64,000 nucleotides of DNA from Planoprotostelium fungivorum. Taxonomy: Eukaryota > Evosea > Variosea > Cavosteliida > Cavosteliaceae. The notes under the pieces are model-generated. The model searched no databases and was not told where the DNA came from. It worked only from the letters and a program-made list of their open reading frames with translations. The position numbers and the translations under genes were made by a program. Positions 9,144 to 55,089 of the stretch are shown one piece after another; position 1 is the stretch's first letter, and every line of letters begins with the position of its first letter. Location: the NCBI GenBank assembly GCA_003024175.1, contig MDYQ01000064.1, positions 1 to 64,000 on the forward strand, in the 5' to 3' direction.

Positions 9144-10570
9144 TTATTTATCTGCGTAAAAGTGGAATTGAGTGTAATGGTTGGCTGCGTTGGCGATATC
9201 TGACACTTCTTCCTGCAGGCTGTTGTCTTGGAATATTCTCAACAGACGATCCGCATCACTCAGGTAGGAGATCGTGTCTTGCACCATCTGTACATTCTTC
9301 TGTTTCAAATGGGCGCCCAACAACTGGAGCGTGTCATCATCATCGTCTTCTCTTTCATCGTGAAGATCGTCACGATCACACGATCGCGATGACGATCGTG
9401 TCCATCTCTTCACCTTTGTAAGAATGTCCGTGGCGATTGCCGTCTTCTCTGAGATGATCTTCAATTTCTCTTTAACGAGATCGATGTTGACGGTAGGTGA
9501 GTATTTGATGTGATCGTGGCACTTGATGAACACTTCGAAAGCTGAAATTGTCAGTGACGTCAGACTACAACGTTGTAGATTCACCCTCTCGCACGGGCTG
9601 ATCGGCTTTGAGCAGGTCGTCCGCTTGTAATTTTCCAGAGTCAATGAGGAAGTAAACTTTGACTCCGAATTTGTAAATGTTGTCTGTCGGTGTGTTGAAA
9701 AGTGTTTGGAGAATAGAATAGAAGAACTCACCTTCCATCTCTTGTCCCTTCTTTGGGTTCTTCGATTCTCTCTCTACCATCTTTTTGATGGATGCAATCA
9801 TCTCCTTCACCTGCTCGGAATCAGACTACAGCGTTGTAGATGGGCACGAATATTCGAGGCGCTGCATGGAGACACATGCGCGTGTGCATCATCGTGACGA
9901 TGGACAGGGACAGTGACATGAGCGATGAGATGAACCTTCGTCTCACCTCTTCTGGGGCATTATCTCGGATGAGCTTCTTTCCAATGGAGGAGTTTGCAAC
10001 TTTGCCTCCGACGTTCTTCTTCGTCTTGTAAGCGAGCGTCTGCATCTTTCCCATCTTCTTGACTCTCTTGAGGGGAGGCTTGGGATCTTGACCCACATTG
10101 CCTTTGATCTTGGTGAACCACTCATTGTACTCTTCTTCGGTCTCGAAGGCGAAGACGATATCTGTTTATGTTGATGAGAATGTTGAATGACGGAGAGAGG
10201 TCGATCGATTCGAGTGAATACTGGATGACGATGGATGATTGGTTGGTGAAGAGAAGTCGAGGACATACCTTCGGCTTTGTTTTGGAAAGTCATGACGAGC
10301 TTTTTTGTGGATCCCTCTGTTGCTGATTGGTCCTTATCTAAAATCTTGAAGCAAGAGATCTCAATACTTCTCTTGGGCTTCGAATCCTACGACGGCTTAA
10401 CTTCCTGTAGACAGCCGAAGACACTAATGCATACTCACGTCTTCATCTGCATACCAATGAAGAGAGCCACCCGTGAGGGCGACATACACTTCATTCCACT
10501 TCTTTCCAAAGGTAGATTCGGTCGTGGCCTTCTTCAGTAAGAAACCATCTTTATCCGCCTCCTCAGTCAT
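9144..10570 (-). CDS. PH-domain protein with helical C-terminal region
   Basis: ATG 10570 (minus) starts MTEEADKDGFLLKKATTES, then FGKKWNEVYVALTGGSLHWY, SIEISCFKILDKDQS, KKLVMTFQNKAE and DIVFAFETEEEYNEWFTKI. This is a complete PH domain with the C-terminal Trp helix, about residues 5-120. After a basic linker (LKRVKKMGKMQTLAYKTKKN) comes an all-helical region of about 230 residues that I do not recognise (FYSILQTLFNTPTDNIYKFG, FEVFIKCHDHIKYSPTVNID, QMVQDTISYLSDADRLLRIF). PH domains bind phosphoinositides or proteins, so a membrane adaptor role is likely. Two introns carry the dispersed palindrome beside their donors (9565-9578 and 9826-9839). The stop codon TAA overlaps a minus-strand AATAAA. 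The gene is head to head with PCNA, 160 bp apart. Confidence 0.7.
9565..9578. repeat. Dispersed intronic palindrome, copy 2
   Basis: CTACAACGTTGTAG, a perfect 14-bp palindrome (core of the 20-bp motif), lies in an intron of the minus-strand PH gene. Confidence 0.8.
9826..9839. repeat. Dispersed intronic palindrome, copy 3 (imperfect)
   Basis: CTACAGCGTTGTAG is a one-mismatch palindrome next to the 5' splice site of another intron of the same PH gene. Confidence 0.75.
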
Positions 10571-33443: not shown

Positions 33444-33994
33444 AAAGAAGTTCGAAATGTGTATAAAAATGTAAATGATTGTAGATGACGGAACGCGCAA
33501 AATGAGACCGCGAGCTTCAAGCTTTGTCAACGTAACAACCCTGCGATTCAATGTTTTAGAGGTTTGGAATCACAGTGTGGATGTCTCTGGCCGTCTTTGT
33601 ATTGGTCTCCATCGAGCGGAAGCGCAAGTTTCGTTCGCATCATCAACCTGATTTCTTATTCTCTGATGAGCGGTATTCCCGATATCAGAACACCTAAAGA
33701 ATAAACTCGACAAATCATTGAACGAGAATGTACGGCATCACCATCCATTGCACAGGTTCTTACTTACTGTTTGCTGCATTGAAATGAGAGTGTTCCTGAA
33801 TAAGGATGCTGCTTTGTATCCTTCTCTGAGGCTGTCACCTTTGCTCCTGGAGCGTCAGCCTGTACGGTATCGTCACGTGTACCTCCACCTCATTACCGTG
33901 TCACCTACTAGTAGGTGAAGGTCCCCCCGAATAAAAGGTGAGGAAAAGGTCCTCCACCGGCATAGATCATTTCTATCGCCGCCGACATTCGAAC
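33444..33994. other. Intergenic region
   Basis: Contains an AATAAA near 33702. No supported gene. A frame from 33938 runs into the next gene but begins in an untranslated leader; the signal-peptide ATG at 33995 is preferred. Confidence 0.5.
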
Positions 33995-34759
33995 ATGCTC
34001 AACACTTTTCTCCTCTTTACGCTATTCTCTGCTGCCGCCGCTCAATACGGAGTCGAATACGGCTACCCCAACGCCTCCTGCACCGGCGCCACCACCGCAT
34101 CTGCCTCCGTCTTCAATGCATGCATCAACGTTCCCATCAATGGCACTCTAGGGTCCACCATCTTGACCAATTTGAGCGCAACTACGGTCGTCCGTTCCCT
34201 CTATAACGTCAGTGCTTGCCAGGGACCCATCCTCACCAACTACACTTACACCATTGGATCGTGCCTCGCCAGCCCCGCCCCCGCCGGATTTGAATCTCCC
34301 TTCTACTTTTTCACCATAGACGGTACTTTCTCTCGTAGGACGGCTTCGTCTCAAGATTCCATCACCGAATCATACTCGAGCAACACCACATGTTCTAATG
34401 GAACTTTCGTCGGAGCCGTCCTCTCCTACGGTAACTGCAACTCCACTCTGAATCACACCTGCCAAGCCGATGCATCTTCGAACAATGTAACCAGCAGCAC
34501 CGTCAGATGTGGAAACAACGTTTACGTTCTCCCCGGGGGTGTCGTCACCACATCAACCTCTTCTACTGCCACGACATCCACCTCTACTTCTTCTACTTCC
34601 ACGACTTCTACGTTCACCTCCTCCACCACATCTGCAGCTTCCACCCAGACTAATACCAACGTAAACACCTTGACGAGCACCCACACCTCCACCGCAGATG
34701 GAGTGACCATCGTCGCTTCTGCTTCTCTCTTGGTCTCGATCATCTTCTCCGTGATTTAA
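33995..34759 (+). CDS. Secreted or GPI-anchored mucin-like surface protein
   Basis: This is a single-exon gene, rare in the window. ATG 33995 gives a signal peptide MLNTFLLFTLFSAAAA. The ectodomain has even-spaced cysteines and many N-glycosylation sequons (NAS, NGT, NLS, NVS, NYT, NTT, NGT, NST, NHT). It is followed by about 60 residues of Ser/Thr repeats (STSSTATTSTSTSSTSTTST), then a hydrophobic end TIVASASLLVSIIFSVI at the stop, typical of a GPI attachment signal. The product is about 254 residues. The fold of the ectodomain is not recognised; similar proteins are numerous in amoebae as coat or adhesion proteins. The ORF could be extended upstream to 33938 without a signal peptide at the very start. 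Confidence 0.7.
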   Translation: MLNTFLLFTLFSAAAAQYGVEYGYPNASCTGATTASASVFNACINVPINGTLGSTILTNLSATTVVRSLYNVSACQGPILTNYTYTIGSCLASPAPAGFESPFYFFTIDGTFSRRTASSQDSITESYSSNTTCSNGTFVGAVLSYGNCNSTLNHTCQADASSNNVTSSTVRCGNNVYVLPGGVVTTSTSSTATTSTSTSSTSTTSTFTSSTTSAASTQTNTNVNTLTSTHTSTADGVTIVASASLLVSIIFSVI

Positions 34760-40469: not shown

Positions 40470-40802
40470 ATGTCTTTGTCCTTAGAGTCTCCGCCTGCCT
40501 CTACGTATATCGATATCATCAAGGATGAAGGATAAGAGCTCTATGTTGGAAAGAATGCAGTTCAATTTTCTTCCTTAGAGATAAGGGTGTTCGTCCGTTG
40601 GAAGTGCTTGACAGTTTCGGTTAGCTGGCGCCAACTTTTTTCGTGCGGCGCATCATCCAGCACACACGCCACTTTGACTCTATAGACACAAGGTGAGGGG
40701 GAGAGTGTCAATGTTACTCGAGACGTCAATGTCTCCTACCGAGAGATTTTGCTCATGTTCTTCGTGAGAGACATACTGACGGATGGAACAGGAGGTCTAA
40801 AG

Positions 40803-43800
40803 ATGAGGAAGACTCTCTTTCGGAAGTCTTCCATCATCGATAAAGACAAATCGATCACCCGTTCCATATTGTTGGGGCAACCATTTTCTGAATCGAAAGA
40901 GAGGACGAATCAGGTATGTCTTCTTTTTTTCCTCTTCATGTCTCCCGACACTCGATGTAGCTGCAACATTCCGGAACATCGGATGATGGATCACCCGACT
41001 CAAGTCCACAACTCGAGCCAAAGGCCTCCAAGGCCCGCATGAAAGATGGGGCACCACAGGTATGTCCATCACTACTTTTCACATGATACATTCTAATTCC
41101 CACACAGGCAGTCGTCGTTAAAAATCCATTGCAAGAAATCATCGGTGAGATTCGATATATCTGTGCTTTCAAATGCACCCATATATCATCGCACGATGTT
41201 CTGAATGATTGACATGAACAGCCGCTCGTACCTTCATGGTTCAAATTGGAGAGAAAAATTATCGTCTCGAATCTGAGATCAAGAGTTTGAAGAAGTTGCG
41301 TTCCATCATCACAACCAGCTACAATGTAGATTACGAGTTCGATTTAGAATACTACGACCAAGAATTCGAACAATATGCAGCCATCAGCACATGGTCGGAC
41401 CTTCCATCTGGTGCTAATCAAAAGCTCATCAAATTGAGAGTGGTGGCGAATCAAGCTCGTGAGTCGTTCGGATGGAATGGGCGGGAGATTAAAATTCGAA
41501 ACAGTGGTGAACAAGTCCATCAACGCGGAGCAGATTCAAGATGAGACGGGGGTGAGTCTTTTCGTTCTGAGGGCCCGAGATCTCATAAGATCTGTGTCAT
41601 CACTCAAACCACCCTCATCATCACATCATCTTACAAGATCATCATCACATGCTCTCTACACCCTCATCATCATCATCATCATCGTCATCTCATACTTCCC
41701 ATCGCGATGACCGTCATCACCCTCCACCCCATCATCCTGCTCCCCTCGATCATCATGAAGTCACCGACACATCACAGAACGAGTTGGTCATGTGCAGCGA
41801 GAACAAAGCGGACAAGACCATGCGTGTCGGTATCCATCCCATCAACTACACGAAGATGAGAAGACAAGCCAGCGACGAATACGTGCCCGTCATTTCCTTC
41901 CTAGGCCCCACTGGAGGCGGCAAGAGCTCTCTCATCTGTAAATTCAATCCGTCCAAGTGAGTTGTAGATGGACGAGGCGAGGGATCTAAAGATAGAACAG
42001 GAAACCCGTCGTAGCCTTGGAATCGCAGCCGATTCCGACGACATCGAACATCAATTCATTTCTAACGGGAGGATTCGATGAAATTCCGCACTTACGTATC
42101 ATGGATGTGGAGGGAGAGGATGGTGGGCTACCACTCATGGAGTATTGTAAATCGGAGGGAATTTCTCTCGATTCCATACCGGGTGAGTGCATCCATCTAC
42201 AACGAGCCGTTCTTCATGACTGTGGATCACGATCGGTCATCACGACCGAGATCATCGTCACCATCATCACCATCATCACGATCGAGACCATCAAGATCAA
42301 GATCATCAACATCAACGTCATCAACATCATCACACATCCACATCTTCATCACACGATGATGATGACATCCACTCACCTCTCACAGGCAACGACGTCTTCT
42401 CTCTCTCATCTGATGACGTGGTCGAATTCGTCGAGACGGTATTCCAGCGCTGCGACATCAAGGACCTCAATCAATACATGGAAGCCAGGAAGAAAGTGAC
42501 AAAGAACGATTTCACGCGACTCAGCTACATCATGAGCGATGTCATCATCTACGTCAACACTGTTCCTCCAAAGAGGGAGTCTGAATATCTAGAGAGGGTT
42601 TTAGAATTCACGTCGGCGGCACAGAGGGTGAGATTTGCATCGTTGTAGATGGAGAAATGGTGGGTTGTAGATTGACGTAATTAGGGAATTTCGAGTGCGG
42701 AGCGACCGGCGCTCATTATGGTCTTCAATCAATGCACGAAGAGAGAGACACCGTTCGATATAGAGGACTCGACGAGACAATTCTTCCTCTTGGTCGATCG
42801 TGAGAAGAAACTACTGGGTGGGATATCACACTACAACGAGCCACTCATTCGAAATTTCAGAGAGTTTCCGCACGGTAGATTTCGTGAAATTACCCGATTG
42901 GGACCACACGGAGCTGTACAAGAAACAATTCTCCGCATTCGAAAATCGATTGAGACGACGTATCAAGGAGACAAAGGCATCTAAATTAGCACAAGGTGAG
43001 AGAATAATAATACTTTTTCGAAATTGGATTTATTTCTTCACGTGGGAGAACATCTATTATATATTATACCACAATAATATAAAATTGATTTTATCTTAGG
43101 CACGTTGTTTGCTGAATCAGCTTGGTTCTCTATCTTAGAGAAAGTGGTTGCCAACTTTGAATCCCAGCAGTTGTCCATGTCCAGAATATTTAACAAATTC
43201 ATCCTCAGTGAATCTTCCCTCGTCAACCGAGCTTATTCCTTCTTCGAGGCTATTTATGGCTCCGGAAGTTCGGATAAATTGCGCTTCCTAAAGTGCAGAG
43301 AGATCAGCATCAAGACCCTGGGTGTCTACATCATCATGCACAGCAAAGAGAAGGGCCACCAGAGCATCTTGGAGGTACGTCATCTACAACGTTGTAGATG
43401 ACGAATTTATTTTTCCGCAGAATCAAGAGACGACGATCCACCTGTTGAGAGAGCTCTTGGCCAGGATTCACAGACGAACACCTTGCGAGGTCGTCTTAAG
43501 AGGTCACACCTGCACACAGGAGTCTGGAACACACGACGTCCATCGTTTCAACATCACACAGGGTAGCATCCATTCTGGTTACGTTCCCAGCAGATCCATA
43601 TCTTCACCGGTGAGAGAAATTTCGGTGAGATTTCGACTTACGTACGGGCAGATCACTCGTACGGCGTCACAAGCCTCTTCGGCGAACCAAGGAAGTCAGG
43701 TGAGAAATTCATCCGATTCTCCGGTGTCTCGTTGTAGTTGAACGAACGTGAATTGACGGACAAAAGATGAACATGAAGAGAGATCTGTCGATGTCCCCTT

Positions 43801-46800
43801 CTCGCAGTGGCATTTTTAAGAGTTTCGCAGCCAGCGTCACCAGCTCCTACTCTGACGATAATTTCGCGAGGAATCGCAGGAAACAGTCCACGGCGCAGAC
43901 GGGTGAGTCACGTGACCGATGACGTCATAGAGATATTGACCGTCTACAATAGAAGTGGAAGAATTATTGGGAGCTCATCGATTTGATGATCCATACCCGG
44001 AAGATCAACTGCGTGAGACAATGCTCGCCACCATCTCTCGTCTCAAGAAGGTATTTTATTTGATTTTATTTTCCATCTATAACGAGTCATTCTGATCGTT
44101 GTAGATGAGCGGAGTGGAGTTTTACAAGGAGAGGCTCTTCATCTTCCGTCAGGGAATACTGAACGGATGCGTTCAGGATTCAAATCTGCCAAAGCACAAG
44201 TGTTTCTTGTGTCTGAAGAACAAACAGGACTGTCTGTTGACTTGTTCTCATACCTTCTGCCGGTGAGACGATCATCCCATGACATCCTCCATCATGACTC
44301 TTCATCATCTGCATCCGATCGACATCGCATCGTCTGATGATGATGATGATGACGATCTTGATGATCTTCACCATGATGGAAGACACTGACACTTCTCAGA
44401 TATTGCATCCTCGAATTCTACACCATCGATCAGATTCAGAGAGGAAACGATGCCAACTCTGACGACGAAGACATCTTCTCCATCGCCTGTCCCCTCTGCT
44501 TAGAAGAAGCCGATTTGATTCCGAATATTCCAGGAATTCCCGGAAGAGGTGCCGTACGAGTCCTCAGGTGATGACGTCATCCGTTCAGTGAACGAGAAAT
44601 TTCGCGGAAAATTCTAAAGAATAACAGTCTGGACGGAGGAGGTTTCCGCGCGGCATTGCAAGTGCAGATGCTGGAGAGGCTGACACAGTTGACCGGATTC
44701 GAAGTGTCTCAAATGTTTGATCTCATCTGCGGTGTGGGAGCTTCCGGTCCATTAGCCCTGTCTTTCTTGGTACAGGTGAGATGTCGTACGAGATGTCTTT
44801 CGGTTGACGTGGGGTAGCAACAAGCGGCGAGATTCCCGATCAACGTTCATTCCGCGCCAAATTCACCGATGCGTCCCAAATCAATCATAGGAGACGAGAG
44901 TGAGTGAGATTTCCGCGAGTTCCCCCGTCTCGATTCGTATCGATTCAAATGGATTTCGAATTGATTTTATTGTTCAGGGGCCAGTACTCTCTCTTTGCAT
45001 CCGGGTATGGGTGGTGGAGGACACTTGTCGACATTTGGGACGGGAGGTCCCAATTTCTCCTCTATCGATGACCACAGAGAGGTCTTTAGAACTCTACCTT
45101 CTCTCCTGAAGAAGAAGCCTCTGCTCCAAAAACTCATCGGTGAAAATCATTCTCACCATCTACAACGAGGCTGACGACCGAAAAGGTAGCCGAATCTTCG
45201 GTGCTATTTTTGGCAGCAAGTACAACGCGGAAGATTACGAGAAAATTCTGAGAGACAACGTCTTCGGTGACAATCCGGACCTCCTCACCTCTGCCGCCCA
45301 CAATACCACCCCCAAGGTGACCATCTACAACCCGCCATTTCCCACGAAATCCCGATGAAATCTCGCAGGTGTTCGTCGTGGCCGGTGACGCGAACTCGCT
45401 GCAATGTCCCGTCTTGCTATCGAATTATCCGAACGCCAGGAGGACGTATCTCCGTGTGGAGAACAAGTACAAATTGTGGGAAGCCGCTCGAGCTACAACG
45501 GCCACACCCGGTATCTTTCCCTTCTTCCAGAGAGGTGAGAATTCGCGGAAATTCCATCTACAACCCGCCCGCACGATCATATCTCGAAATCTTCCATCTA
45601 CAACCCGTCCGCGCGATCATATCTCGAAATCTTTCATCTACAACCCGCCCGCGCGATCGTATCTCGAACTCTTCTGATGGAAGACAGACGAACATTGTTT
45701 CGTGGACGGGAGCGTATTCACATCATCACCGACCGAGTTAAGCATCACTGAGGCATACAACATCTGGGGCTACGAGAGGGACATAGACATGGTCATCTCC
45801 ATGGGAACCGGAATTCGCTCCACGAAGCAGATGCAGGGAGACGGTTTCATCAGGTGAGTCGGTCCTTTCTCCACCGTTTCGAAAACATTAAAATGAAATA
45901 AAATGTCTGACGGAATTCAGCTTCCTGAACGAAGTCATCGATCTGGCTTTGGCATCAGAAGAGACGCATACGATCATCAAGTCCATGTCGTCGAGATATC
46001 ATGACAGCAATCGAGGCGAAATTTCAACGGATTCTCCGCTCGATGACAGGCCACTCTTCTCTTACTTCCGTTTGAATCCCGAACTGAAGAAGAGGGAAAA
46101 TCTGGCGAATTCCGCGCAGAAGAAGGTGAGAGAGTTGCATCTACAACGGTGTAGATGACCATCTTGGTAGAATCTGAACGCTCTGATGAATCGAACGGAG
46201 GAGTGGATCAAGAGAAACGATGATCAGTTCAGGAAGATGGCAGAGATAGTTCGAGCTAGAGGTGCGTTACATTCTCATAGATGGAGGATTTTTCTTCACG
46301 TTTGTACGATATTCTTAGAAATGCAAAAAAAGCCATGTTTTTGATTCATTCGTACAAAAAACTGGATGGAAAAGAATCTTATTTCTTATTTTTTCAACCT
46401 TGTAACAATCTCAGTTTACGTCTTCGATGGAGAGGGTGCCCGCCAGGCCACCCGCGGAAATTTCGCCGAATTCTCCGTATTTTCCCGCCTAAATCTCAAT
46501 CACCAACCTTCCAAGGGCCAGAAATTGGGACTCATTGTAGAGATCGAAGACGAGACCGACGTCCTCGTGGAAGGTTCCCCGGAAAACTCGTGGAGAATTC
46601 GATACGTACCCACCCGCCTCGGTCTACACCATTGTAGTGTGATGGTCACCACGAACGAAGAGGGAGCTGTGGCCAGACACATCAGTGGCAGTCCCTTCAT
46701 CATCAACGTCGTAGAGAGGGGTGAGGGTAATTGCTCCTCTTTCGTATTGAAATTCCGCAGAAAACTCGGAGGAATGTGACATGGATATCCCGCCCGAATT

Positions 46801-48570
46801 GTACATACCCTTCCACGAGTTCATCCAGTACACCACGTTCGCCGGTGGGTTTCATTCGATTGCAACGGTCTCATTCAATTGCGACGGTTTCATAAGAATA
46901 GAACTCACTCGTTGTAGATGGCAACCCCATTCCAGTAGAAGAGAGCCGATCAGAGCAGCAGAGGAAGATCCTCATCGATCGCATGGAGCCTCTCGGTGTC
47001 ATAGGTGACAGCTATGACGTCATAAGACGTAACTCACCCTTCCCAGCGGATCCCTCCTACATCTCACACGACACGGACAATTTGATGAAATCTCTCTCTT
47101 CTCAATTGTTTTACGACCAAGTCAGATACAATTTCGTCAGGAAGTCAATCGCGGGCTGGTTGACCAACCACCCACACCACAAGCTGGTGAGTCACCCTCC
47201 ATCGTCCGACTACAACGAGCCACAGGGAGACGGTAGCATGCTGTGCGAGTACGTGTCGTCCTGGGACGATTATTGTGACAGCGTCGAGACGGAAGGAAAA
47301 TGGCCCGACGCCTTCTCCCTCGTCGCAGCCTGCGAATTCTTTGGTGTTAGAATCGTTATCGCATCTGCGAAAGAAGGAGCGAGATACATCACATCCATCA
47401 AACCGAGAGTCTACAAGAGAAAGAGACCCCTGCTGATCGGTGATATTTCTCATCTTTTTCTCATCTTTTTCTCGGCGGGAAGACGAGGGGGCTCGTTGTA
47501 GATGGACAGATCGCTGAAGGGTTCAGGTCACTGGTCGGATTTCTGTTACGGTTCGTTGATTCCGTGGACTGAACCGTCTCTGTTGAGAACATCGACTATA
47601 CCATCCACCCCCATCCGCAGGAGCAAGGCCAATTCTCTCGCTTTCTCACCCAGAAACGCCAGATTCAACATCAAAGAGGTGATGAGATGCGTTTCGTCAT
47701 TTTTCTCAACTGTTCCAAGGCGGAAAATTCGCCCAACATTTCTCCGGTCAAGGGTAACGTGTCGACGACCTCGTCGCTGTCGACGAGATTCGATCATCTA
47801 GACATCGATCAACTGTTGGAAACCGAAAACCTCCACACACTCTCCCAACGTAAGTCGAAATCTCCGCGAGATCTCCTCACCCACATTCAGTCGATACCAT
47901 GACCGAATCCATCGGTCTGACACCCTTCCGATGCGTAGAGTACGGTCCGGCCCCCCTCATCAGAGCACTCCCCACACAGAGGAGAGTCGTCGGCAAGTGG
48001 AGACAGCTGTTGGACCCCACTTATATCGAGATCACTCACGAAAACGAGGACGACGATCACACGGAGGAGGTGAAAATTTTCATTCGACAGTAGAAGAGAA
48101 GAATCGAGAGAGAAATGATCGGGGGAGGCTGATGATGAACAGGTGGAGACGGAATCGGAAGAAGAGATGACGGAAGACAATCGATCGGAAGTGTCTGCAC
48201 AGTTGTCACCCACGGCCATCAGGTCCATACAGCAATCCATGCCCCCCGCCCTCGTGCAGGAGCCAAAGTCCACAAAGAGGTGAGAGAAACGAGAGAGCAA
48301 CACTCGGATTCTGACGCCGCCAACAGAGTGACGTCCATCATTCCTGTCATGCAGACACCACAGGTGAGATTGTTTTCTATCGGAGAAGAGAGTGACACAG
48401 GACAGAGCCAACCCACTTCGACACCGGTTGTCATTCCAACGAACAACAGCTCGAACAGTTCGAGTGCATCGACGTCTCTGGCGTCTTCACCATCGAAGAA
48501 GGACACGAGCAAGAAGGAGAGTAAGAAGGAAGTCAAGGGGGAGAAGAAGAAGAAGGGATGGTTCTTTTGA
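40803..48570 (+). CDS. Giant multidomain protein: large GTPase, RING, patatin-like, filamin repeat, OTU-like
   Basis: About 35 exons keep one frame over 7.8 kb, from ATG 40803 (first clear start) to TGA 48570. In order: (1) unknown helical N-terminus. (2) P-loop GTPase, GPTGGGKSSLI at about 41904-41935, PTTSNINSF as switch I, MDVEGEDGG as G3 near 42100 and LIMVFNQCTKRE; the order resembles GB1/dynamin-type GTPases. (3) RING finger C3HC4, CFLC at 44201, TCSHTFCRYC, CPLC ending 44499. (4) Patatin-like domain, VLSLDGGGFRAALQ, MFDLICGVGASGPLAL at about 44716, and the Asp motif FVDGSVF at 45705. The nucleophile position is Gly. (5) Filamin-type repeat, about 46420-46720 (YVPTRLGLHHCSVMV, GSPFIINVV). 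(6) OTU-like fold, about 46960-47580, PADPSYISHDTDNLMKSLSS QLF and KWPDAFSLVAACEFFGVRIV. The Cys position is Asn. (7) Ser/Lys tail. A role in ubiquitin- and membrane-linked signalling or defence is inference. Confidence 0.75.
43381..43400. repeat. Dispersed intronic palindrome, copy 9 (perfect 20 bp)
   Basis: CATCTACAACGTTGTAGATG, the exact consensus, starts 6 nt after the exon end in an intron of the giant gene (donor GTACGT). Confidence 0.9.
45555..45674 (+). repeat. Three tandem 40-bp units inside one intron
   Basis: Units at 45555-45594, 45595-45634 and 45635-45674 each start CATCTACAACCCG and end near CGAAATCTTC. They differ from one another at a few bases. The array fills most of one intron (about 45534-45688) in the patatin-like part of the giant gene. 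Each unit carries one copy of the dispersed half-site. Confidence 0.9.
46138..46157. repeat. Dispersed intronic palindrome, copy 10
   Basis: CATCTACAACGGTGTAGATG, one mismatched centre pair, sits about 14 nt from the donor of an intron of the giant gene. Confidence 0.85.
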
Positions 48571-49174
48571 TATAAAATACGATGATCTGCTGAAATGATG
48601 AGATAGACAAGTTTCTTGGTGTTCATATTGATCGATATCTCGAAGTTTGCATCCTTTCATCTCCCGGTGGCGCTTCGTCACGGTATTCTCTTCTCAACAC
48701 GGTGAGGGGAAGGAGAAATACAACATTGCATGTTCCATGGTCACTAAGCATGAAAACAAAGAGTCGCCTGACAAGTGAATCAGACTCGTGGGATGCTGAA
48801 TTCATTCGTCATTGATTGGCGTAGATAAGAGTAGAAATACACATCGCATATTCACAGTGATTAAAAATCAACACATAGAGTGCACAAACCGGGCACGACT
48901 GCAGTTGTCCCTGCTCGTAGATGCAACTGGGACGGAGGAATTCCCATCGCGGCTGGTGGAGCAGATGATTCGGTTTTTCCGGTTGGTAGTCAAATGGTGC
49001 ATTGAGAATGGATCACTTCTCTCCCGACTACTGGAATATGCGTGACAAAAAAATTAGTGATCCAAATGGGTGGACACCAACCAGAAAAACCAAATCAGAT
49101 GTCTGTGAAATTGGGAAAAGAAATAGAACACCCATGTGATAGCAAAGGATTAATCCATTCTTATTCGAATTCAA
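48571..49174. other. Intergenic region carrying the second MITE
   Basis: It lies between the convergent ends of the giant gene (+) and the PAN gene (-). Apart from the MITE no gene is supported. Confidence 0.55.
48967..49096. mobile_element. 130-bp MITE, copy B
   Basis: It is identical to the element at 16000-16129 apart from one A/G difference in the GAATATGC(A/G)TGAC segment, and is in the same orientation. It has the same 21-bp imperfect terminal inverted repeats. It is flanked by a different 4-bp direct repeat, AGAT (48963-48966 and 49097-49100), so it is an independent insertion. Confidence 0.92.
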
Positions 49175-51122
49175 TCACACCATCTGGATGGTAAAGAAGC
49201 AGGCTGCATCTGCCACAGTTCCTCCGTTAGGCCACAGACTACCCCCAACTTGTCCTTGTACCTTGACGTACTGCTGTGCGGCATCGCTAAATAGGGTGAA
49301 GCTGTTGTCCGTCTGCCTCTCCAGATAGAACGTCTCCCAGCCTCCAAAGTTGAGCGAAACAGCCTCCAACGTGGCCACACCGTAACGGGCCCAAACATAT
49401 GAGCCGTTGTAGACGATGGAAAAGGTTCCGTCGGCATTGACGTTACCCTTGAATACGGAAGCTGTGGTACCCGTGGCTGCTGTCTTCAAGCTGTTGTCCG
49501 ATGATACGACAACGGGGTAGCCTCGATTGTACAACTTGAAATTTCCACTTGAAAACCGGTTGAGAACTCCACTTGTACGATATCCTCTCTTCTGGTACGC
49601 TCCCGCCTTGACTGATTTGAGCCAACAGGAATTGGACCCCTCGTTGTTGTTATCGTAGGCCCACGCGTTGCAATTGGAATTTCCCTGACATTTCATCTGA
49701 CAGTCGTAAACGTTTGAGACGGTCGTGCTGGCGATGTCGGCCCCGGGGAGGTCGTAACCGAATCGGATCGGGCCCAAAGAATTGGTCCGGGCAGACTTTG
49801 CGGTGTCATCGGACCTCTTTAGAGTGGCGCGGACGGGAAAAGGCAGCATGATGTAACGAGTGTTTCCGTTTCCGTCTATCTTGAAGTCGGGCGAGGTCGA
49901 TTGGAGGGACATGCTGTTGGTCGTGAACATCATCTGATCTGCATTGGCGGATGATACGAATGCATCATGTGAAGCGGCTTGGTAGCAGTAGACCCAGTCG
50001 GTGAAAGGCTTTTGGATCTCCCAGAAGGTCTTTGTCTCTGTCCAGGGGCCGGTCATCTTATCGGCCGTTCGGAGTTGCAATGAGCAGATGGTGGCCTGTG
50101 TGCTGACCCATTTCTGAAGGTAAGGGTTCCAGACGGTGTTCATGAGGTTCGACAGCACGTACATCGAGTAGAGAGGTTGAAAGTTGGCCTCGGAGTCGCA
50201 CGATCTCGACCACGTTCCGGGTTTCACCCAGCAGTAGAGGTTGCCAAAGTTGTAATTGACAAAGTCCGATAGGGTGTATCGAGCGATGCGAACGGTGGAG
50301 TTTGTGGTACCTCTGAGGTAGACGTAATTCTCATCGTGATGGATGTGATCCCATGTCAGAGGTAACTGGTAGTTCTTCTCTGATGTCCATTTCTGTCGCA
50401 CGTGTGAGAAGATGGGGAGAAGATGGACGACACACCTGCATGTCATTTTCGAATGGATTGGAGATGACGAGGATGTAGGCGTGGTCGCACCACTCTCCTC
50501 CGTCTTTGAAGAAGCAGTGGTGTTGCATCGAGTAAAACTTTCCACCGTAGACGAAGCCACCACCAGACCATAGCCAGTCATTACCGTTCGGGGCATAAGT
50601 GAAGGGCTTCATCCAACTTCCGGGGGTGTGGTTGGGCTTGTTACCCTTCGGTTTACCGTCGATCATTTCGGTCTGTGTCGAAGTCAATGGGTGTCGTAAT
50701 GTCTTGTGAGAGGAAATGAGGTGAGGGGATAAACATACCGTCATGTAAGAAGAGTGAGAGAAACCCATCGGAGAGTTTTGTCTGATAGGGTGTGATTTGT
50801 CGGTGACATTGATGATTCCATCTATCCTTGATTAGAAGAACCCTTCGTAACCCTCTCACAAGACGTATCGAAGAAAGACATGAGGGAATGTGTGGAGTTA
50901 TAGTCGTAGGTGAAGAAACCGTCTGCAGCAGTCCAGCCCTGACCGACACCACCGGGTGCATTCGCCCACGGGTCACTGCAAATCGTCAACGTTTCACATT
51001 AGAACATCTCATCACTTGAAGAACTTGCTCTGCAGCTCCCAATCATCACTGACCGTCTTGACGGTGAAGTCGACTGCTATCGCCAGAGACAGACAACAGA
51101 GGAGTATGTGGAGGGACCTCAT
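49175..51122 (-). CDS. Secreted protein with PAN/Apple domain
   Basis: ATG 51122 (minus) gives a signal peptide MRSLHILLCCLSLAIAV, then DFTVKTVSDDWELQSKFF. The middle region looks like a carbohydrate-active or lectin-like beta domain (WLWSGGGFVYGGKFYSMQHH, WDHIHHDENYVYLRGTTNST, YNFGNLYCWVKPGTWSRSCD). A PAN/Apple module follows: VSNVYDCQMKCQGNSNCNAW, AYDNNNEGSNSCWLKSVKAG. The C-terminal about 130 residues resemble a beta-trefoil (SLKTAATGTTASVFKGNVNA, FYLERQTDNSFTLFSDAAQQ). TGA is at 49175. The first two-thirds of the coding sequence is in two long exons. It is likely extracellular or lysosomal and sugar-binding; the enzyme class is not recognised. Confidence 0.65.

Positions 51123-51261: not shown

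Positions 51262-55089
<3,828 letters not shown>

Follow-up and report, generated by a model that had tools for sequence, protein, structure and literature searches.

A putative RING finger protein with pseudo-patatin and pseudo-OTU folds in the amoeba Planoprotostelium fungivorum

Contig MDYQ01000064.1 of Planoprotostelium fungivorum (assembly GCA_003024175.1), of which positions 1 to 64,000 were analysed (the window), carries a gene on its forward strand at 40803-48570. Its spliced frame stays open over 1779 amino acids (aa) and lines up a P-loop nucleoside triphosphatase (NTPase) region, a C3HC4 RING finger, a patatin fold, a filamin repeat and an OTU-like fold, in that order. The patatin and OTU folds both appear, from alignment, to be without their catalytic residues. 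Since the patatin Ser and the OTU triad positions look replaced, neither phospholipase nor deubiquitinase activity would be expected by homology, and a domain list alone would mispredict both. If, as it seems, the lipase and deubiquitinase folds are dead, likely activity is left to the NTPase and the RING. We tentatively favour, at somewhat less than an even chance, a RING ligase or scaffold, regulated by nucleotide, that would carry a pseudo-patatin and a pseudo-OTU as recognition modules in one chain. If the single chain is real, an enzyme fold of the lipid world and one of the ubiquitin world have been turned into non-catalytic parts beside a RING, and it becomes testable whether dead lipase and OTU folds can serve as recognition modules of a RING ligase. 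The features that carry this argument are the following.

40803..48570, + strand: whole gene model, 34 exons and 33 GT-AG introns, 1779 aa, a hand-curated splice model
41844..43107, + strand: P-loop NTPase region, aa 200-470, with GPTGGGKSS at aa 220, DVEG at aa 272 and FNQC at aa 392
44201..44499, + strand: C3HC4 RING, aa 749-802, with C749, C752, C763, H765, C768, C771, C799 and C802, split by an intron at 44263-44399
44554..45794, + strand: patatin core, aa 821-1090, with the oxyanion motif DGGGFR kept, Gly862 for the nucleophile Ser, and Asp1061 kept
44737..44739, + strand: codon GGA, encoding Gly862 where patatins have the nucleophile Ser; no Ser codon is closer than two base changes
46261..46698, + strand: one filamin/ABP280 immunoglobulin-type repeat, aa 1209-1303, its first codon spanning an exon junction
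47055..47564, + strand: OTU-like fold, aa 1385-1512, with Asn1393, Cys1506 and Gly1508 at the catalytic positions

The domains and their catalytic positions

The Pfam model Patatin (PF01734) scores 57.7 bits (expectation value, E, 2.4e-15; cut-off 27.7) and 51.4 bits in the whole protein, and a weak alignment to iPLA2beta extends to about aa 1204, at a YFRLNP motif. The nearest NCBIfam patatin model is that of the bacterial lipase of the cyclic oligonucleotide-based antiphage signalling system (CBASS), NF041079, at 5.2e-21 and 75.2 bits, far under its cut-off of 200. The GxSxG nucleophile elbow is absent: the sequence reads GVGASG, with Gly862 in the Ser position. Among solved structures the patatin region found seven matches, five of them with alignments, namely four near-identical CBASS-type chains, which count as one, and iPLA2beta. 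Ser is replaced by Gly862 in all five; for the CBASS-type chains the alignment sets FDLICGVGASGPLAL against FDLITGTSVGGIVAL, and that with iPLA2beta runs ungapped over 54 residues, 426 to 479, with GTSTGG at the elbow place. The catalytic Asp is kept, as Asp1061 in VDGSVF against VDGGLF and LDGGLL, with Ser rather than Gly or Ala after DG. An automatic splice model that removes the elbow would likewise leave the protein with no nucleophile.

For the OTU-like fold we built a small profile of our own from OTUD1, OTUD3, OTUD5, Otu2 and one typed consensus. The region scores 17.3 on this profile, a value reached by none of 2000 shuffles (1210 scored at all, the best at 4.9). Hidden Markov model (HMM) and MAFFT alignments alike set DTDN in place of DGNC, with Asn1393 at the Cys position, and the MAFFT alignment with the same four proteins and the typed consensus sets CYG in place of HYN (Cys1506 and Gly1508). 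It would take two base changes to turn the codon of Gly862 into one for Ser, that of Asn1393 into one for Cys or that of Cys1506 into one for His, so none of these three can be put down to one sequencing error; for Gly1508 (GGT) a single change gives an Asp codon. AlphaFold was run on the OTU exon alone, on a stretch that retained a 39-base-pair (bp) intron and missed the last strand, and was uninformative (mean predicted local distance difference test score, pLDDT, 42.6).

All eight zinc ligands of the RING finger are present, and both their order and their spacing are those of C3HC4; none of 200000 shuffled versions of aa 684-824 shows the pattern. The zf-C3HC4 model reaches 22.5 bits over the first part of the finger when the region is taken in isolation (cut-off 21) and 16.1 bits, below the cut-off, in the whole protein; the best solved-structure match, RNF141 (E 0.0011), also covers the first part only. 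The finger retains the hydrophobic residue of C-x-L-C and the Pro of C-P-x-C, residues that usually contact the ubiquitin-conjugating enzyme (E2). The filamin model (PF00630) behaves in a similar way, with 28.7 bits for the isolated region (cut-off 26.9) and 23.3 bits, below the cut-off, in the whole-protein scan.

Its motifs mark the N-terminal domain as a P-loop NTPase that also has DxxG: GPTGGGKS at aa 220 matches GxxxxGK[ST] and is followed by DVEG at aa 272, both recognised by eye only. The likely G4 place, around aa 392, reads NQCT and differs from the standard GTP motif [NT]KxD. A Pfam scan with the limit set at E 10 reported no match to GBP, RHD3 or Dynamin_N; the limit overstates the reach of the scan, because HMMER filters remove most matches above about 0.1. 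Sub-threshold matches in the region were to AAA_PrkA (0.0028), RsgA_GTPase (0.086) and COG2p_C (0.098), and a sequence search of solved structures gave a single match, to an ABC protein, at E 1.2.

A preliminary description of this DNA had named five folds. Four appear to be supported by profile matches, the OTU the weakest among them, and the fifth would be a P-loop NTPase without a family match. The patatin fold stands above its cut-off, and so, as isolated regions, do the filamin repeat and the RING with its full ligand set. As for the OTU, the fold beats all 2000 shuffles on our small profile and stays below the Pfam cut-off. The label 'GB1/dynamin-like' given to the N-terminal GTPase is unsupported because no GBP, RHD3 or dynamin family match was reported. 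The reading of two parts as phospholipase-type and deubiquitinase-type is contradicted, the former by the lost Ser nucleophile and the latter by the replaced Cys, His and Asn positions.

The splice model and the single chain

The preliminary description gave the gene the same limits, and these hold: the start ATG is at 40803 and the stop codon ends at 48570. The final model was curated by hand, with splice motifs and the continuity of the domains as guides. Its 33 introns are all of GT-AG type, with a median length of 52 bp and a range of 39-226 bp. It replaces an automatic splice model (30 introns, start at 40755) that cut out the patatin elbow and left in some of the intron at 45535 as well as stretches rich in His and Asp. 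Of those 30 introns 21 are identical in the final model, the remaining joints being hand-set. An earlier curated version had 33 exons and 1792 aa, and the addition of one 39-bp intron within the OTU region gave the present 34 exons and 1779 aa. Two introns matter for what follows.

43700..43766, + strand: intron 13, the weakest joint, with acceptor AAAAG; its retention brings an in-frame TGA at 43739-43741, with the next ATG at 43767
47187..47225, + strand: 39-bp intron inside the large OTU exon, a late addition; its removal lifts the OTU profile score from 9.6 to 13.9 bits (whole protein, best domain)

Codon usage moderately backs the model frame. Scored with the usage of open reading frames (ORFs) elsewhere in the window, and with stops given zero weight, the model frame is the best of the three in 25 of 34 exons and totals +21.1, against -119.4 and -91.8 for the others. 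With a stop penalty the 33-exon version came out best in 31 of 33 exons, a count that is flattering because the model was built to avoid stops. The introns of that version are also poorer in G+C (0.434 vs 0.504).

The heptamer CTACAAC or its complement GTTGTAG, with 67 occurrences in the window, lies in 14 of the 33 introns and in one of the 34 exons, and may be an intronic repeat signature. In the 33-exon version the counts were 13 of 32 introns and 2 of 33 exons; the two sets are not independent, because the extra intron was placed in one of the motif-bearing exons. Introns with the heptamer include 43375-43420, 45140-45185 and 45535-45687, and within the last of these it sits in a repeated stretch.

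The single multi-exon frame of the preliminary description thus stands as a splice model, open through 34 exons; the single transcript is what we infer from it. Intron 13 is where that frame could part into two adjoining genes, one with the NTPase, closing near 43741, and one with the RING, patatin, filamin and OTU parts, which would start from the ATG at 43767. Its acceptor is poor, retention brings in the TGA, with the ATG after it, codon scores around the joint are low (0.8, 1.8 and -1.8 in exons 13, 14 and 15), and in exon 15 a different frame scores slightly above that of the model. However, the gap from stop to start would be only 25 bp, the same AAAAG acceptor also serves intron 20, and the automatic model picked an identical intron 13. 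There is also no AATAAA or ATTAAA in 41489-45886, a weak point since the next one past the modelled stop lies at 48860, 290 bp off. We consider two genes unlikely, if the most serious of the alternatives, and a single gene likelier.

Two further parts of the chain lie outside the five folds.

41144..41454, + strand: N-terminal region, aa 83-160, perhaps a ubiquitin-like fold of the PB1 type, by eye only
47565..48567, + strand: C-terminal tail, aa 1513-1779, Ser- and Lys-rich towards its end, terminus GWFF

The Pfam scan at its limit of E 10 reported no match in aa 83-160, and Pfam up to E 1 gave none in the tail.

Around the start of the OTU-like fold, a short motif (NSPFP or DTPFP, followed by P-x-Y-V) in aa 1374-1392 recurs in window frames 365-475 and 2655-2816, at E 0.11 and 0.18 only; these two frames are similar and apparently come, by eye, from two related tandem genes. 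Beyond the gene itself, a search for paralogues in the window gave three weak matches at E <= 1 and five at E <= 5, which we judged to be chance. Just downstream of the gene and on the opposite strand, a 477-aa ORF at 49178-50608 has a PAN domain (E 2.2e-9), and an ORF at 51482-52084, - strand, has OB_NTP_bind (PF07717, E 1.4e-12), a domain usual in DEAH helicases. Two sub-threshold matches lie farther away: an ORF at 33935-34756, + strand, resembles CfaA_B_C (PF11912, counting factor-associated protein A/B/C; E 0.00036, 21 bits vs 28.6), a family first described in Dictyostelium, and one at 9147-9773, - strand, is TNFAIP8-like (E 0.0008, 19.8 bits vs 22.5). The CfaA_B_C match, together with the shortness of the introns, would be in keeping with an amoebozoan source.

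What the chain may do

We envision that the N-terminal domain would bind nucleotide and so cause the chain to associate with itself or to be recruited to a membrane. The dead patatin fold could hold a lipid or a nucleotide-type ligand and leave it uncut, the filamin repeat could act as spacer or dimeriser of the chain, and the dead OTU fold might bind ubiquitin or another protein. The RING would then recruit an E2, leading to ubiquitination of the targets gathered in this way. What the sequence itself shows is the open frame after splicing, the order of the domains, the ligands of the RING and the substitutions at the catalytic positions; in this scheme we infer the ubiquitin ligase (E3) activity, the ligand binding and the location.

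Several points weigh against a nucleotide-regulated RING ligase or scaffold with two recognition modules. Leu803 follows the last RING Cys, where RING E3 enzymes as a rule have a basic linchpin, Arg or Lys. The OTU family model (PF02338) gives 20.9 bits (E 5.5e-4), under the Pfam cut-off of 23.3, and a sequence search of solved structures gave no OTU match. Cys1506 and Gly1508 come from the MAFFT alignment alone, the HMM alignments ending before both, and the acceptor at 47526, which opens the exon with Cys1506, was chosen in part for restoring the end of the OTU fold. Among the five yardstick sequences Otu2, in the version used, itself has Ser at the catalytic Cys place. The elbow segments of the patatin alignments are weak when taken alone (10.6 and 16.4 bits), and the codon score of the model frame falls below zero in 17 of the 34 exons. 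Ubiquitin binding by the dead OTU fold is a guess, because FAM105A, a pseudo-deubiquitinase, does not bind ubiquitin (PMC7862380). Finally, with no relatives found, conserved substitutions cannot be told apart from decay.

The searches for relatives covered viral, phage and prokaryotic collections, and the scans of contigs used six short peptides each, so that absence from them means little. Patatin peptides gave no pattern match in viral contigs; OTU peptides gave five pattern matches there, none confirmed; and patatin peptides gave 31 pattern matches in genome contigs, a collection free of eukaryotic genomes, again with none confirmed. The NTPase found no match in phage records.

The protein could also be a fusion in decay, or one peculiar to its lineage, that does little and whose enzyme domains have drifted. 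Catalytic residues are gone from both enzyme folds, the OTU is sub-threshold, half of the exons score below zero in codon usage and no relative was found in those collections. Yet the spliced model runs through 1779 codons with zero in-frame stops, though it was built to avoid them, the folds are otherwise recognisable, the RING ligands are complete, and the collections searched were of viruses, phages and prokaryotes. We think drift of this kind improbable, and place it next after a pair of genes.

A role in defence or vesicle surveillance has two pointers, by analogy: the nearness to the CBASS lipase, a bacterial defence family, and the layout that puts RING and NTPase in one chain. They would suit a sensor of membrane damage or of pathogen vacuoles, in which an NTPase coat works with a RING ligase as guanylate-binding proteins do with RNF213. 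Against such a sensor, no guanylate-binding or dynamin family match was reported, the C terminus GWFF is without a CaaX prenylation motif, the patatin site is broken, and the family nearness of a single domain is uninformative on function. This sensor seems to us doubtful, ranking behind drift. Still more speculative is a new amoebal class of membrane-surveillance E3, whose NTPase would assemble on damaged or foreign membranes, whose dead patatin would read a lipid and dead OTU a ubiquitin-like signal, and whose RING would ubiquitinate the target; if this long shot were true, two former enzymes would act as sensors within one chain.

Least probable by far is a patatin lipase still active through a shifted nucleophile, Ser864 of GVGASG. 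This Ser stands two residues past the usual place and has Gly-Ala in front of it, like the Ser in the GASAG motif of animal PNPLA proteins. Against it, the shift would demand a two-residue insertion, the elbow aligns gap-free to the solved patatins (GTSVGG) and to iPLA2beta (GTSTGG), and the surroundings of Ser864, G-A-S-G-P, fail GxSxG.

Likeness to known systems

The preliminary description knew of no characterised protein with this order of domains, and none is listed in our literature searches, whether for the architecture or for inactive patatins, though eukaryotes that were not searched could have one. Fungi may have fusions of patatin with a RING or with an NTPase, which serves as a lead and not as a test.

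With the CBASS cGAMP-activated phospholipase and iPLA2beta (PLA2G6) the protein has in common the fold, the GGG oxyanion motif and the DG of the Asp motif, and with iPLA2beta alone also the YFRLNP stretch further on. In contrast to both, the nucleophile Ser is here a Gly and the fold is embedded in a multidomain chain. The OTU deubiquitinases of the OTUD1, OTUD3 and OTUD5 type share the region order and a GxW-x(5)-LxAxxE stretch, whereas their Cys, His and Asn positions are here Asn, Cys and Gly.

For the RING, the likeness is to other multidomain ligases. TRIM2 and TRIM71 have a RING with one filamin repeat downstream; here too a single repeat follows the RING, but the patatin fold stands between them, and the Pfam scan of this protein gave no B-box or NHL match. 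RNF213 carries an NTPase and a RING in one chain, as this protein would, but no AAA tandem is seen here. The guanylate-binding proteins are large GTPases that act on membranes, and no GBP family match was reported for our protein.

The closest parallel for a dead OTU fold is FAM105A/OTULINL, which is not known to have a RING, NTPase, patatin or filamin part. It is a pseudo-deubiquitinase of the endoplasmic reticulum membrane, with Asp139, His350 and His352, that shows no ubiquitin binding (PMC7862380). As in FAM105A/OTULINL, the triad of the OTU fold appears broken here, while the substituted residues differ. By analogy, FAM105A/OTULINL would offer an example of a catalytically dead OTU fold that sits at a membrane (PMC7862380).

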